A stretch of 21,479 nucleotides of DNA, from the IMG/VR virus record IMGVR_UViG_3300047309_000071, positions 1 through 21,479 of that record, one strand, 5' to 3'. Positions within the stretch are counted from its first letter, which is position 1; each line of letters starts with the position of its first letter. Of this stretch, positions 10,276 through 21,479 are shown in pieces. Under the pieces are notes generated by a model. It had not been told where the DNA came from and did not search any database. It was given only the letters and a program-made list of their open reading frames with translations. Position numbers and translations under genes: made by a program. The DNA is from a virus.

Positions 10276-11730
10276 ATGATGTCAGAATTGGCTAAAAAGG
10301 CCCGTGCGGCCATGAAGGCGAAAGCCAAAAGCATAACAACCGACCCCCACCAAAAGGTTGACTCGTCAACTTGGACTCCTCCTGAGCCTTTGAACACAGA
10401 GGCAAAGACAGGGATGCGTCCTGTCAGTCGCCGCGCCTACAAGAAGGGTGGCAAGGTTGAGGGTTGCGGAGTCAAGATGCACGCTGGCAAAAAGCCTCGC
10501 GCTTCTGGCGGCAAGACCATGGCTAAAGATTGGATCAATCGTAATGCCAAAGAAGCCAATGAAGAGCGTGATGGAATCAAGCATGTTGGCGGCATGAAGA
10601 AGGGTGGCCGTGCAGAACGCGCCACAAAGGGTTTTGTTCCCCCGAAGAACCCGCCGCTTCCGCCAGAACGTCCCGCTGACCTCGGTGGCAAGAGCAAGTC
10701 TGTTGCCGATCAGCTCAACAAGATGACAACCCCTGAGTATCGCAATGCTCTGGAAGGCAAAGAGCCTCAACCCAAGGATTTGTACTCTCCTGAACAAGTA
10801 GAAGCTTTGGAGCGTGGTACAAACAAGCGCGGTGGCCGCACCAAGAAAATGGACGGTGGACCTATGCCAGCAATGGCTACGCCTCCCATGGCTGACCCTC
10901 GCTTGGGTATTGTTAAGCCAAAGATGATGAATTTTACCAACAACCCTGTTGTTCCCGGCCAGAAGAAAGGCGGCAAGGTTGAGAAGCATGAAGATGTTGC
11001 CGAAGACAAGGCACTCATCCGCAAAATGGTAAAGCCATCTGCAAGAACAGGGAAATTAGGCGGCGGCCCGCTGTCTGATCCTGCTTTCATGCAAGGGATG
11101 ACAGCTATGCGTGCGCACGCTGCTAACCGCAAGGACGGCGGCGATGCAGAGAAGAAGGAAAAGAAGTCAGAGAAACGCGAAAAGCGTGCTACTGGCGGCA
11201 ATGTCTTCTCAGGCCCCAGCTATCCCGGCAAAGTCCCCGGCGTAACAGGCGGTCGCATTGCTCGCGCCACTGGCGGCAAGACAAAAGGCAAGACAGACAT
11301 CAACATCATCATCTCTGCTGGCAAAGATCAGGGACAAGGTGGGATGCCCGGTATGCCCCGCCCTGTAGGTTTGGCTGGCGCTATGCCTCCTCCTCCCCCT
11401 CCCGGTCCTATGCCGCCACAAGCTGGCCCGATGATGCCTCCCATGCCCGCTGGTAGCCCTCCCGGTATGCCTCCGGGTATGCCCCCAATGCCTCCGGGCG
11501 GTGCGCCTCTGCCCCGTAAGTCTGGCGGTCGTGCCAAATCCTACATGGATATGACTGCTGGCTCTGGATCTGGCGAGGGCCGTATCCAAAAGACAGAGAT
11601 TGCTGAGTATAAGCGTGGAAAGCGTAAAGCTGGTGGTCGCACATACCGCAGCTACAAGGATATGGATGCTGGTGCAGGGTCTGGTATTGGCCGATTGGAA
11701 AAGACCGAGATTGCTGCACACGCTAAGTAA
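10276..11730 (+). CDS. Basic Gly-Gly-motif and Pro-rich protein, 484 aa
   Basis: Very Lys/Arg/Gly/Pro-rich, with no enzymatic motif. About a dozen short (K/R)-x-GG-(K/R) motifs are scattered through it (KKGGK, ASGGK, KKGGR, KRGGR, TGGRIARATGGK and others). Residues 56-90 resemble residues 40-77 of the small protein at 16994. Residues about 370-413 are a Met/Pro/Gly block similar to MPPGMPPMPPGG. The C-terminus is a tandem duplication (residues 415-443 and 451-480) with the pattern K-x-GGR-x2-3-SY-x-DM-x-AG-x-GSG-x-GR-x2-KTEIA. The charge suggests contact with DNA or an acidic partner. The position before the capsid genes suggests a virion or assembly protein, but the function is unknown. Two in-frame ATGs (10276, 10279) follow a GGAG site. 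Confidence 0.65.
   Translation: MMSELAKKARAAMKAKAKSITTDPHQKVDSSTWTPPEPLNTEAKTGMRPVSRRAYKKGGKVEGCGVKMHAGKKPRASGGKTMAKDWINRNAKEANEERDGIKHVGGMKKGGRAERATKGFVPPKNPPLPPERPADLGGKSKSVADQLNKMTTPEYRNALEGKEPQPKDLYSPEQVEALERGTNKRGGRTKKMDGGPMPAMATPPMADPRLGIVKPKMMNFTNNPVVPGQKKGGKVEKHEDVAEDKALIRKMVKPSARTGKLGGGPLSDPAFMQGMTAMRAHAANRKDGGDAEKKEKKSEKREKRATGGNVFSGPSYPGKVPGVTGGRIARATGGKTKGKTDINIIISAGKDQGQGGMPGMPRPVGLAGAMPPPPPPGPMPPQAGPMMPPMPAGSPPGMPPGMPPMPPGGAPLPRKSGGRAKSYMDMTAGSGSGEGRIQKTEIAEYKRGKRKAGGRTYRSYKDMDAGAGSGIGRLEKTEIAAHAK
11518..11715 (+). repeat. Tandem C-terminal protein repeat (2 copies)
   Basis: Copy 1 (11518-11604) and copy 2 (11626-11715) encode the same pattern: K-(S/A)-GGR, SY-x-DM, AG-x-GSG-x-GR, KTEIA. 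Many codons differ between copies while the amino acids are kept. This indicates an old duplication held by selection on the protein, not a recent slippage event. Confidence 0.75.
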
Positions 11731-11760
11731 CTTGCCACTGTCGGCCACACTGGCGAGTTA

Positions 11761-11828
11761 GGGGTGGAAATGGGTCCCCCTCTCATTTCCACCCCACCTA
11801 TACAGGGGGATAGCGTCTTAAGGGGGAC
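11761..11828 (+). promoter_or_regulatory. 12-bp leader hairpin with loop complementary to the next SD (candidate RNA switch)
   Basis: GGGGTGGAAATG (11761-11772) pairs perfectly with CATTTCCACCCC (11784-11795). The 11-nt loop contains GTCCCCCT (11774-11781), the exact complement of AGGGGGAC (11821-11828), which holds the Shine-Dalgarno sequence of the gene starting at 11832. The layout is that of an H-type pseudoknot hiding the ribosome-binding site. A second GGGGG at 11805-11809 could compete. No T-run follows, so it is not a standard terminator. Confidence 0.55.
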
Positions 11829-11831
11829 ACT

Positions 11832-12044
11832 ATGTTGACGCATCAGGCATTTTACGATGCCACACTTAAAAAGCTCATTTCTGAAGAAATTGAGCGAAGG
11901 AAAAACAACCTTATTGCAGCCCATCAGGCCAAAGGGTTTGATTTCCCAGCATTTAAACACCATGTTGGTATTATTGAAGGACTTCAAATGGCCTTGGGGC
12001 TATGTGAGGAGGCTGAGAAATTGGCCAATCAGACGTACAGATAA
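11832..12044 (+). CDS. Small helical protein, 70 aa
   Basis: I do not recognise a named family. The sequence is mostly helical: a helix with KKLISEEIERRKNNL, a short turn (KGFDFPAFK), then a helix GIIEGLQMALGLCEEAEKL. Proteins of this size and style occur between portal and capsid genes in many phages. The ATG follows AGGGGG at a spacing of five bases, and that site lies in the predicted pseudoknot described at 11761-11828. It is followed after 12 bases by the GroES-like gene, so regulation of this start could affect the whole head operon through coupling. Confidence 0.65.
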   Translation: MLTHQAFYDATLKKLISEEIERRKNNLIAAHQAKGFDFPAFKHHVGIIEGLQMALGLCEEAEKLANQTYR

Positions 12045-12056
12045 AGGGGGTAAAAT

Positions 12057-12449
12057 ATGCCGTATATGAAGATGGAACACGAAGTTGATCCAGCCGTTAC
12101 CTTATTGAAAGAGCTGGGTGACATTTCACAGTTTGAGATATTCAACAACCAAATTCTGGTGGCTGTCTATCTTAGGCCAGAAAAGACCAAGAGCGGCATT
12201 TTATTGCCCGGTCAAGTCAGAGATGAAGATAAGTATCAATCCAAAGTTGGCCTTGTCGTCAAAAAAGGCCCCACAGCCTTTGAAGATGCTGGCGAGGAAT
12301 GGTTCAAGGACGTTGAACTTAATCTTCATGATTGGATTGTTTATCGGTCAACTGAAGGATGGGGCATTACGGTCAATAATGTTCTTTGCCGTGTGCTTGA
12401 TGACACTTCAGTAAGGGGCCGCATCCCTCACCCAGATTTTGTTTGGTAA
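12057..12449 (+). CDS. GroES-like co-chaperonin
   Basis: A 130-residue protein with the cpn10 fold pattern. After an N-terminal extension of about 28 residues comes NNQILVAVYLRPEKTKSGILLPG (residues 30-52), matching the strand and mobile loop by which GroES contacts GroEL (E-x-T-x-x-G-I-x-L-P). It continues with KVGLVVKKGP (63-72) and closes with strands DWIVYRSTEGWGITVNNVLCRVL. It would cap host GroEL and help fold phage head proteins, the role played by gp31 in T4 and by CocO in RB49. A GroES-type protein normally has about 95 residues, so the N- and C-terminal additions here are phage-specific. The gene sits directly before the scaffold-like protein, and GGGGGT upstream of the ATG is a good ribosome-binding site. 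Confidence 0.82.
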   Translation: MPYMKMEHEVDPAVTLLKELGDISQFEIFNNQILVAVYLRPEKTKSGILLPGQVRDEDKYQSKVGLVVKKGPTAFEDAGEEWFKDVELNLHDWIVYRSTEGWGITVNNVLCRVLDDTSVRGRIPHPDFVW

Positions 12450-13978: not shown

Positions 13979-14002
13979 ATCAAATAAATATAAGGACATG
14001 AG

Positions 14003-14027
14003 GGGGCTGCCTATTGGTGGCCCCTTT
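14003..14027 (+). terminator. Terminator at the end of the scaffold unit
   Basis: GGGGCTGCC (14003-14011) pairs with GGTGGCCCC (14016-14024) around the loop TATT, as a 9-bp RNA stem including two G-U pairs. A short TTT and further A/T-rich sequence follow. It lies just after the gene ending at 13978. Confidence 0.65.
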
Positions 14028-14061
14028 ACATTTAAAATTTATTTGTAGATATTTGTATAAA
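14025..14061 (+). promoter_or_regulatory. Possible promoter for the capsid genes
   Basis: The A/T-rich stretch after the terminator has TTTACA (14025-14030) and TATAAA (14056-14061), but the spacing between them is too long for a sigma70 pair. TAGATA at 14046-14051 gives better spacing and a poor match. A promoter is expected here because a terminator precedes highly expressed capsid genes, but no consensus pair is convincing. Confidence 0.2.
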
Positions 14062-14164: not shown

Positions 14165-14749
14165 ATGGCGAATACGAATGCGCCTTTCGGCTTCCGTCAA
14201 TACAGCGGCACTGGCTCTGCCCCGACTTATGAACAAGTCGCTGTCCAGATCGCTTATAATGCTACCAATATCTTCTTTGGCGACCCCGTAGAACCTGCTG
14301 CTGACGGCACAGTGACTCAGGGTGACGGTACAACTGCGGCTGCTGGCATTGCTGGCGTCTTTGTTGGCTGTCAGTACCTTTCTGTTTCCCAGAAGCGTAC
14401 CGTCTGGTCGAATTATTGGCCCGGTTCTGACGTTGCATCTACCAATGTCGTGACTGGTTATATTGTCAATGATCCCAATGCTAAGTTTGTTGCTCAGACA
14501 GACAGCTCTGGCCTTGCTCAGACTGATGTTAATGCAACAATCGGTTACACGACAGGTTCCGGCAATACCGCAAATGGTATTTCTGGTGCTTATCTGTCCG
14601 GCGTTGGCCCGACGACATCCACCCTTCCTTTCCGTGTTGTTGGTCTTGTTGTCGATCCTCCGGGTTCGGCTGGCACGGCCTCTGGCGGCTACAACTGGGC
14701 TATTGTTGCGTTTAACAACGTAACAACTAAGAACCAGACCGGTATCTAA
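14165..14749 (+). CDS. Head decoration/accessory capsid protein (putative)
   Basis: A 194-residue protein beginning MANTNAPFGF, rich in Gly, Thr, Ala and Val, with alternating strands and no enzymatic motif. It lies immediately upstream of the major capsid gene. The N-terminal pattern (N-APFGFR, then a GD-V-P-A-A-DGTV block) resembles small virion proteins I recall next to capsid genes in other phages, often called decoration or head-stabilising proteins. AAAAAGGAGAA upstream of the ATG is a strong ribosome-binding site, as expected for an abundant virion protein. It is the first gene after the stem-loop leader at 14060-14131. Confidence 0.65.
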   Translation: MANTNAPFGFRQYSGTGSAPTYEQVAVQIAYNATNIFFGDPVEPAADGTVTQGDGTTAAAGIAGVFVGCQYLSVSQKRTVWSNYWPGSDVASTNVVTGYIVNDPNAKFVAQTDSSGLAQTDVNATIGYTTGSGNTANGISGAYLSGVGPTTSTLPFRVVGLVVDPPGSAGTASGGYNWAIVAFNNVTTKNQTGI

Positions 14750-15773: not shown

Positions 15774-16433
15774 ATGAAACTGCAAGAACTGAGCTACAGC
15801 GATGTGTCTGAAGGTATCGCTTATAATCCTGAAACTGGGATTTTTACTTGGAAGGTCGATGCTTCCCGGAATGTGAAAAAAGGAGCTGTGGCGGGTACAA
15901 TCAAAAGAACCCGTCACCGCACCACAGGGCAGACAAAATCCTACCTTTATATCAGATATAAAGATCGGGAAATGGTTGGCTCAAGAGTTGCGTGGTTGTT
16001 GCATTACGGTGTTTGGCCTGACCGGTCTGTAATGTTTGTTGATGGAGATACAGCAAATCTTAAGATTTCAAATCTTAAATTGTCTGAATTTACATCAAAG
16101 TCTATCAGCCAAGATGGTCGTGTTGTTAGGAAAATACCTAAGGATAAGCAAAGGCACTATAGCCTGAAGCGCCATTATGGGATTTCACTTAATGACTACG
16201 CCGAAATGTATCGCCTTCAGGACGGCAAATGTGCAATTTGCAAGCTCCCGGAGGAAAATCGAGACCGACACGGGAATGTTCGCGTTCTAGCTGTCGATCA
16301 TGACCATAAAACTGGTTCCGTGCGTGAGCTTTTATGCTATGCTTGTAATAGTATGTTAGGGCAAGCAAGGGACAATAAAGAAGTTCTATTGGCGGCTGCT
16401 GAGTATGTACAAAAGCATTCTGGCAATAGATAG
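15774..16433 (+). CDS. Free-standing homing nuclease: degenerate HNH plus endonuclease VII domain
   Basis: 219 residues with two nuclease-type modules. The N-terminal part (residues 1-105) follows the HNH_3 homing-nuclease layout: YNPETGIFTWK, an AG turn, GSRVAWLLHYGVWP, then NLKISNLK. The usual D/E-H-x-N-G-D element reads MFVDGD (87-92) here, so the catalytic His is missing. The C-terminal part (about 125-219) is an intact recombination endonuclease VII-like domain: zinc Cys pairs CAIC (153/156) and CYAC (188/191), catalytic VDHDHKTG (174-181) and N192. It probably cuts phage DNA at a target near this locus and spreads its own gene. It sits between the capsid gene and the next virion gene, behind its own promoter candidate, with TAGGAGTTAAC before the ATG. 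Confidence 0.85.
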   Translation: MKLQELSYSDVSEGIAYNPETGIFTWKVDASRNVKKGAVAGTIKRTRHRTTGQTKSYLYIRYKDREMVGSRVAWLLHYGVWPDRSVMFVDGDTANLKISNLKLSEFTSKSISQDGRVVRKIPKDKQRHYSLKRHYGISLNDYAEMYRLQDGKCAICKLPEENRDRHGNVRVLAVDHDHKTGSVRELLCYACNSMLGQARDNKEVLLAAAEYVQKHSGNR

Positions 16434-18107: not shown

Positions 18108-18752
18108 ATGGCAACGAGCGGAACCTTTTACGTCTATGAGCATTGGCGGCTTGACCGCGATGAGTGCTTTTATGTTGGAAAAGGCAAGGGCAATAGAGCT
18201 TATTCTATGAAGAATCGAAACCGCTATCATCAAGCTATTCGTTCAAAATTGAATCGCATAGGCTCAGCATTTGAAGTAAGAATTGTTGCTACTAATTTAC
18301 TAGAAGAAGATGCGTTTTGCCTTGAGCGTGAGCGTATTTTGTTTTGGCGTAATAATAATATTGACTTATCAAATATGACCGATGGCGGCGAAGGTGTTCG
18401 TGGAATTTCAAAAGAAATTAGAATTAATGCTGCAAGGGTTCATATTGGCAACAAATACAATCTTGGAAGATTTTGGACTGAAGAACAAAAATATTTTATG
18501 AGAAAAAAGAAACTTGGATGCAAGGCCCCTGTTGAAACTGAAAAAATGAGGCAAACTAGAATTAAAAATATTGAAAAATCTGCAATTAGCCGCAGAAAAA
18601 AAGTTATATGTTTAAATGATATGGTTGAGTTTAATAGCGTCTCAGATGCCGCGAATCATTATGATTTGCCAAAATCTACCATATCTAAAATTTGCTGCGG
18701 AAATCGTAACGCTGCATATGGCCTTAAATTTAAATTTAAGGAGGCCGTATGA
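18108..18752 (+). CDS. GIY-YIG homing endonuclease with NUMOD1-like tail
   Basis: 214 residues. The N-terminus carries the GIY-YIG nuclease core: FYVYEHW (GIY position, residues 7-13), CFYVGKGKGNRAY (YIG position, 20-32, Arg30) and an acidic helix LERERILFWR (72-81) with the candidate catalytic Glu, followed by NMTDGGEG. The middle is Lys-rich and probably DNA-binding. Residues about 165-210 (KVICLN, SVSDAANHYDLPKSTISKICCG, YGLKFKF) form a NUMOD1-like helix-turn-helix for site recognition. The gene is visibly more A/T-rich than its neighbours, with runs such as AAATATTTT and Lys/Asn codons AAA/AAT, as expected for a mobile gene. Its stop overlaps the next ATG (ATGA). Confidence 0.87.
   Translation: MATSGTFYVYEHWRLDRDECFYVGKGKGNRAYSMKNRNRYHQAIRSKLNRIGSAFEVRIVATNLLEEDAFCLERERILFWRNNNIDLSNMTDGGEGVRGISKEIRINAARVHIGNKYNLGRFWTEEQKYFMRKKKLGCKAPVETEKMRQTRIKNIEKSAISRRKKVICLNDMVEFNSVSDAANHYDLPKSTISKICCGNRNAAYGLKFKFKEAV

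Positions 18753-20457: not shown

Positions 20458-21479
<1,022 letters not shown>

Follow-up and report, generated by a model that had tools for sequence, protein, structure and literature searches.

Gene setting and leader of the small gene

The DNA analysed, here called the window, is a virus record of 21,479 bases. Its + strand carries a small gene coding for a 70-aa protein (11832..12044), followed by a gene for a GroES-like co-chaperonin (12057..12449; phrog_3188, E 2.9e-9; PF00166 Cpn10, 29.5 bits against a cut-off of 21.1). The 70-aa protein (11832-12044) matched no PHROGs or Pfam entry; homologues of it occupy this position for every one of the 162 distinct leaders in the comparison. 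The gene after GroES, called 'scaffold' in an initial annotation made from the sequence of the window, belongs to phrog_28737, annotated as of unknown function, and the major head protein (phrog_371) is encoded farther along, past that gene. Named head-protein relatives of the window were found in 21 records, including Pelagibacter, Roseobacter and Caulobacter phages, 20 of them being less than 60% identical; the genome assemblies with head-protein relatives were bins that span many phyla. No sigma-70-like promoter was detected in 11300-12200.

Folding predicted three hairpins upstream of the small gene, all on the + strand. The first, P0 (11728..11760; MFE fold, -14.3 kcal/mol alone), has its 5′ end at the stop codon of the preceding ORF and lies directly against the second, P1 (11761..11795; -24.1 kcal/mol). 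The P1 stem has 12 perfect pairs (11761-11772 with 11784-11795) and reaches 14 bp by folding (arms 11761-11774 and 11782-11795), which adds the pairs G11773-U11783 and G11774-C11782 and leaves a free loop at 11775-11781, UCCCCCU. An 8-nt linker (L3 of pseudoknot 1; 11796..11803) leads to the tract AGGGGGA (G1; 11804..11810), complementary to the P1 loop over all 7 nt; the pairing of the two is termed PK1. The third hairpin, P2 (11810..11833; 11810-11819 with 11824-11833, one mismatch and a 4-nt loop; -7.3 kcal/mol), lies around the Shine-Dalgarno (SD) segment of the small gene and takes in two bases of its AUG. That SD segment, AGGGGGAC (G2; 11821..11828), ends 3 nt before the AUG and is the reverse complement of GTCCCCCT, present at 11774-11781; this 8-nt pairing with the P1 loop region is termed PK2. 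Since G11774 is paired within P1 in the predicted fold, the eighth loop-SD pair would cost one P1 pair. The SD of GroES, AGGGGG (G3; 12045..12050), is a 6-nt complement of the P1 loop and a possible further target. As isolated duplexes, the second stems of PK1 and PK2 in the window were calculated at about -12.6 and -15.3 kcal/mol, respectively. Compared with dinucleotide shuffles of itself, the leader folded more stably (z -3.3 for 11740-11860, z -4.1 for 11728-11840).

The initial annotation had described the 12-bp stem, the 8-nt loop and its SD complement, all of which were recovered where it had placed them. The competitor that it proposed for the SD, a GGGGG at 11805-11809, proved to be a better one, as the whole of AGGGGGA (11804-11810) matches the loop. 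It did not mention hairpin P0, the P2 hairpin that encloses the SD, or a potential role of the GroES SD as third target.

A terminator scan made a single + strand call, which starts at 11761 and has a different 5-bp pairing. P1 is followed by ACCTATACA, not by the T run that accompanies the GC-rich hairpin of an intrinsic terminator, and this reading is disfavoured.

Chance level of the complementarity in the window

The + strand of the window contains two perfect hairpins with a stem of at least 10 bp and a loop of 5-14 nt. Only P1 is followed, within 60 nt, by a 7-nt complement of its loop, and such a complement occurs there twice. When the hairpin was kept fixed and the 36 nt downstream were dinucleotide-shuffled in 20,000 rounds, an 8-nt complement arose in 2,255 shuffles, and 193 shuffles contained two 7-nt complements. 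For this genome alone, the loop-SD match is thus only moderately unlikely by chance because the region is C/G-biased, a caution that had been raised in the initial annotation and that was correct for a single sequence. Chance matches being this frequent, the case depends on relatives.

Occurrence of the element among relatives

Loci L001-L273 were obtained from scans with GroES, the small gene, the head protein and sequence patterns. A scan of viral contigs with the pattern CCCCCT...ACCTA...GAGGGGG listed mostly unrelated sequence, and L084, L101, L105 and L142 were contributed by it among the matches listed; an RNA model run on 98 pattern-scan loci recognized two true elements plus one weak match, L184.

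In the first (discovery) set, the small gene was present in 135 sequences, 133 of them with enough upstream sequence, and 83 leaders were kept once those more than 90% identical had been dropped. A hairpin with C in the loop was found in 53 of these 83 leaders and not in the other 30. Eleven of the 53, without G-tracts, were set aside by eye before the G1 and G2 tests, and both tracts were present in 40 of the remaining 42. A strong hairpin occupied the P0 position just 5′ of P1 in 39 of these 42 element leaders, at most 3 nt from P1 in 36 of the 39. A held-out set was fetched afterwards; its 182 loci, 173 of which contained the small gene, gave 171 leaders and added 79 new distinct ones, of which 63 had the hairpin and 50 had both tracts under a fixed rule. 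The rule for G-runs was widened after L194 and L218 had been seen, and again for the combined set; for the held-out set, only GGG or longer was accepted. With both sets combined, the full arrangement was present in 92 of the 162 distinct leaders (including L063 and L239, with a single G-tract each), and a partial one in 11, marked by eye.

Presence of the element was clustered on the tree, requiring 12 changes as compared with a mean of 48.6 when the labels were shuffled. Relatives without the complementarity mostly lacked the whole element and had ordinary SDs. The element was not found in any named phage; the closest one, MW202675, has the genes without the G-tracts. Within the collections that were searched, all phages known so far to carry it are uncultured.

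Two leaders depart from the common layout. In L213 (287-414), P1 and its C-rich loop are kept and an inserted stretch with a hairpin of its own separates P1 from a GGGGGA SD; G1 seems to have been lost. In L191 (1640-1710), eight T directly follow P1, in the manner of an intrinsic terminator, and both G-tracts are still present downstream.

Covariation of the P1 loop with G1 and G2

Pairing of the P1 loop was evaluated by swap tests, in which the longest Watson-Crick run between the loop and a partner was compared with the runs obtained after exchanging partners among relatives, a procedure that preserves the composition of the family. In the discovery set, all 53 hairpins tested against the whole downstream stretch, a test independent of the by-eye exclusion of the 11 leaders, gave a native mean of 7.04 and a swapped mean of 5.57 (0 of 20,000 permutations reaching the native value). 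The corresponding values were 7.45 and 5.84 for G1 (n = 40) and 7.08 and 5.87 for G2 (n = 40), each with 0/20,000. The test still gave 0/20,000 when the leaders were collapsed to 28 or 13 clusters, and 169 and 171 of 20,000 with 5 clusters; with 2 clusters it had no power. The held-out set behaved likewise: 6.94 against 5.63 for the whole stretch (n = 63), 6.94 against 5.74 for G1 (n = 50) and 6.64 against 5.75 for G2 (n = 50), all at 0/20,000.

In phylogenetically independent pairs from the combined set, the native G1 partner was better in 21, worse in 8 and tied in 9 (Wilcoxon p 0.0004), and the native G2 partner was better in 16, worse in 3 and tied in 19 (Wilcoxon p 0.0008). Of the 38 pairs, 8 for G1 and 3 for G2 favoured the swapped tract; for G1, the L001/window pair is one of them. 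Tract sequences vary among relatives (GAGAAGGG, GGTAGAGGGA, CGGGGA, GAGGAAG), and changed loops go with changed tracts. Loop ACCCCTTCTCA of L194 is accompanied by tracts TGAGAAGG and TGAGAAGGG, loop ATCCCTCTACC of L211 by GGTAGAGGGA and GAGGGAT, loop ATCCCTCCC of L049 by GGGAGGG and GGGAGG, and loop GTCCCCG of L331 by CGGGGA and AGGGGA. The poorest fits are L212 and L215 for G1 (5-nt match) and L245 and L249 for G2 (4-nt match only).

These sequence comparisons support pairing of the P1 loop both with G1 and with G2. The H-type loop-SD pairing and the competing tract proposed initially are thus each retained by compensating changes in relatives, according to both the swap tests and the independent pairs. 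The check that had been suggested at the time, a search for paired changes, indicated that, where the element is present, complementarity is not as a rule lost without compensating changes.

Covariation within the P1 and P2 hairpins

A MAFFT alignment (A2) with an RNAalifold consensus misregistered P1, and covariation was therefore taken from per-sequence parsing and from a model alignment (A4), which matched 72 of the 74 chosen sources given to it. In the 72 aligned elements, 96.7% of the P1+P2 cells were paired, as against 62.0% with the 3′ letters shuffled; both sides had changed in 16 of the 17 P1+P2 pairs, and the covariation score was 0.894 (0.216 shuffled, at most 0.111 when slid), figures that lean toward structure because A4 was fitted to it. 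For P1 on its own (helix 1), 98.5% of the cells were paired and 11 of 12 pairs had changed on both sides. The P2 arms, parsed independently, scored 12.95 in the native combination and 8.72 when swapped (0/20,000), although L245 and L249 have almost no P2. The stems of P1 and P2 vary in sequence and keep their pairing, a conclusion that the comparison supports for both hairpins.

The GroES Shine-Dalgarno sequence

The GroES SD also matched the P1 loop better in the native combination than after swapping, both in the discovery set (6.71 and 5.69, n = 42; 0/20,000) and in the held-out set (6.64 and 5.61, n = 50; 0/20,000). Independent pairs were evenly divided in the first set (7:7), and the combined set gave 16:7 (sign p 0.047, Wilcoxon p 0.062). 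The match of the GroES SD to the loop is suggestive and weaker than those of G1 and G2; being borderline by independent pairs, it was kept out of the main claim.

A G-tract SD, defined as at least four consecutive G or as GGGAGGG, preceded GroES in 33 of 42 element leaders of the first set as compared with 2 of 41 others, and in 39 of 50 as compared with 8 of 29 in the second set, where the 29 include partial-element leaders. Such an SD was found before the gene after GroES in 1 of 40 element leaders and in 2 of 39 others. The SD of this last gene, used as a control, had no loop match (native 3.78, swapped 3.78; 10,992/20,000; pairs 4:8). The timing of head proteins, which the initial annotation had seen as the object of control, is not borne out by these values: within the run, it is the small gene and GroES that have SDs of the G-tract type. 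Such an SD is missing from most other ORFs of the window; the exceptions seen are the ORFs at 1394 and 19451, whose starts are preceded by at least four G, so that this type of SD is not exclusive to the small gene and GroES. Overall, the reading given in the initial annotation is partly supported.

Copy number and database searches

In the window, the RNA model scored 57 bits at the leader, the sole strong site. At E<=0.1 it matched 16 of 18 larger virus records, with a single match in 14 of them and a second weak match (E 0.07-0.1) in G008 and in G017; there was no match in the other 2 of the 18, where the element may be absent or divergent. Among 76 loci, no strong match fell outside the leader; L238, with the hairpin and without the tracts, gave E 0.001. 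Normally, then, a record appears to contain one element.

A comparison with Rfam 15 gave 0 matches at the gathering score for the window and 0 at E<=1 with permissive filters for 11650-12080. A full-text literature search on pseudoknots and structured RNAs found no description of the element, and no paper on the regulation of phage-encoded GroES was found. The best reading of the data is that P0, P1, the decoy tract G1 and an SD-presenting P2 make up a putative new cis-acting element of phage mRNAs.

Several known systems share traits with it, as far as the available excerpts of the cited papers describe them. Closest in action are the ColIb-P9 repZ leader, the T4-type gene 32 leader and the operators of ribosomal proteins. 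In repZ (PMC8383071), translation downstream depends likewise on a pseudoknot near the ribosome-binding site; there, however, the pseudoknot activates and an antisense RNA blocks it, whereas the loop of the phage element has two partners, one of them the SD, and no known antisense RNA. The gene 32 leader (PMC3014915) is also a phage mRNA leader with a pseudoknot of coaxial stems involved in translation control, but gp32 nucleates on a pseudoknot located 5′ of the SD, whereas in the element the pairing reaches the SD and covaries. In the rpsO, alpha operon and bL20 operators (PMC10931766), leader pseudoknots include or flank the ribosome-binding site and are bound by a ribosomal protein, the element having no known protein partner. 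Closest in look are the ar14/cuckoo hairpins and other sRNAs with C-rich loops (PMC10746234, PMC10253847, PMC8383071), which have variable stems and C-rich anti-SD loops; these act in trans through CCUCCUCCC or UCCC motifs, whereas the loop of the element varies with tracts of its own mRNA. The ar14/cuckoo motif CCUCCUCCC is not present in the window loop, UCCCCCU. The Pseudomon-groES motif RF01721, whose name is listed in PMC2864571, is likewise a structured RNA named for groES, but at E<=1 it did not match the leader of the window.

A model for translational control and its alternatives

In 40 leaders, PK1 had a stem 1 of 12 bp, a stem 2 of 7 bp and loops L1, L2 and L3 of 2, 0 and 9 nt (medians; L3 range 7-16). 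PK2 has similar stems, with a median linker of 23 nt. The pairing run was longer in PK1 in 17 of the 40 leaders, longer in PK2 in another 17 and equal in 6. Covariation and geometry together give PK1 the features of an H-type pseudoknot, namely a loop paired with a downstream tract, short loops and near-coaxial stems. The loop-G2 covariation places the SD inside a pairing, as in H-type operators, and this pairing would be what blocks it.

These observations make it probable, in our judgement, that a cis-acting structured RNA leader sets translation initiation of the small gene, with a probable carry-over to GroES. P0 and P1 would form a stable pair of adjacent hairpins, the C-rich loop of P1 acting as an anti-SD segment for which G1 and G2 would be mutually exclusive partners. 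Formation of PK1, a short-linker pseudoknot of the H type, would leave the SD in the P2 loop, and a ribosome could open this weak hairpin. In PK2 the SD would be hidden, giving a closed state. PK1 would form first during transcription, and because G1 is transcribed first the default state is probably permissive; whatever occupies or unmakes PK1 would move the loop onto the SD. Competition of the two pairings in vivo, the ON state, its trigger and the effect on GroES are what we infer from this scheme. Against it, the pseudoknot-free fold of the window is already stable and its P2 sequesters the SD together with part of the AUG, so that translation might be OFF in both states, or weakly ON in both, and the open state is of uncertain strength. 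In addition, a cis mechanism with one loop per mRNA leaves the GroES SD match unexplained, and a further SD-like partner, at GroES, is easier to reconcile with trans or alternating action than with one in cis alone. A broader scheme, which we put forward only tentatively, is that one anti-SD loop, checked by the built-in decoy G1, controls the ribosome-binding sites of the small gene (in cis) and of GroES (in cis or in trans), the loop and the three tracts co-evolving.

The GroES match is also what speaks for a different, rather unlikely possibility: that P0-P1 is released by linker cleavage or termination as a trans-acting anti-SD RNA that represses the small-gene and GroES SDs of other transcripts, with G1 as a lock that keeps the loop inactive in the intact mRNA. 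The GroES SD lies about 220 nt away, and a single loop cannot occupy the two SDs of an mRNA simultaneously; the eight T directly after P1 in L191 would suit termination; and the alphaproteobacterial ar14 sRNAs have variable-stem hairpins with anti-SD loops (PMC10746234). However, the H-type geometry of PK1 (L2 median 0, L3 7-16 nt) and the position of G2 within P2 point to cis action, a T run directly 3′ of P1 was seen by eye in only 1 of 42 discovery elements (L191), and the GroES link is the borderline one in independent pairs. It is marginally less likely still that PK1 alone is functional and static, as an mRNA stabiliser, a standby site or a protein-binding operator, G2 and G3 being similar to G1 because all three are SD-like tracts suited to one host. 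The shorter and less variable geometry of PK1 agrees with this, and a phage leader pseudoknot can be a protein site, as in T4 gene 32 (PMC3014915). Yet the loop-G2 covariation holds independently (16:3), the tract differences among relatives disfavour one fixed protein motif, and the lack of a G-tract SD in most other ORFs of the window argues against a host preference that holds genome-wide.

An ordinary intercistronic or terminator hairpin with purely compositional complementarity would account for the many relatives that have a plain hairpin there, in some followed by T-rich sequence (L016, L020), and for the frequency of the 8-nt match in the window shuffles (2,255/20,000). It is nevertheless very improbable, since the composition-preserving swap tests gave 0/20,000 in two sets and the P1 of the window has no T tail. 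Variation of the GAGAAGG and GAGGAAG type likewise disfavoured a fixed protein motif at the tracts, and led to the rejection of a G-quadruplex, as tracts like these lack the G-runs needed.

Pseudoknot control of phage translation rests on few cases, to which the element would add about 100 distinct natural variants; a 2010 review (PMC3014915) regarded T4 gene 32 as possibly the sole viral pseudoknot in translational autoregulation. Two competing pairings, one of them with the SD, are readable from compensating changes, and a two-state RNA model is therefore testable with natural variants. The element also links RNA control to a phage-encoded GroES. If a decoy-checked loop does control two sites, it would amount to a self-contained RNA switch with a lock, and RNA would set the output of the phage co-chaperonin.

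Other features of the window

A second strong hairpin is located at 13999-14028 (GAGGGGGCTGCC / GGTGGCCCCTTT), about 137 nt upstream of the ORF at 14165. Many relatives have hairpins with a TTTACATTTG- or TTTACTTTTG-like tail at a similar distance (+2.1 kb from the small gene), and the 13999-14028 hairpin may be a terminator or another signal. Two ORFs, 15774-16433 and 18108-18752, lie between structural genes; by their motifs they resemble HNH and GIY-YIG homing endonucleases. The ORF at 20461-21477, which runs off the end of the window, contains a long collagen-like Gly-Pro-Thr repeat and presumably codes for a tail or fibre protein.
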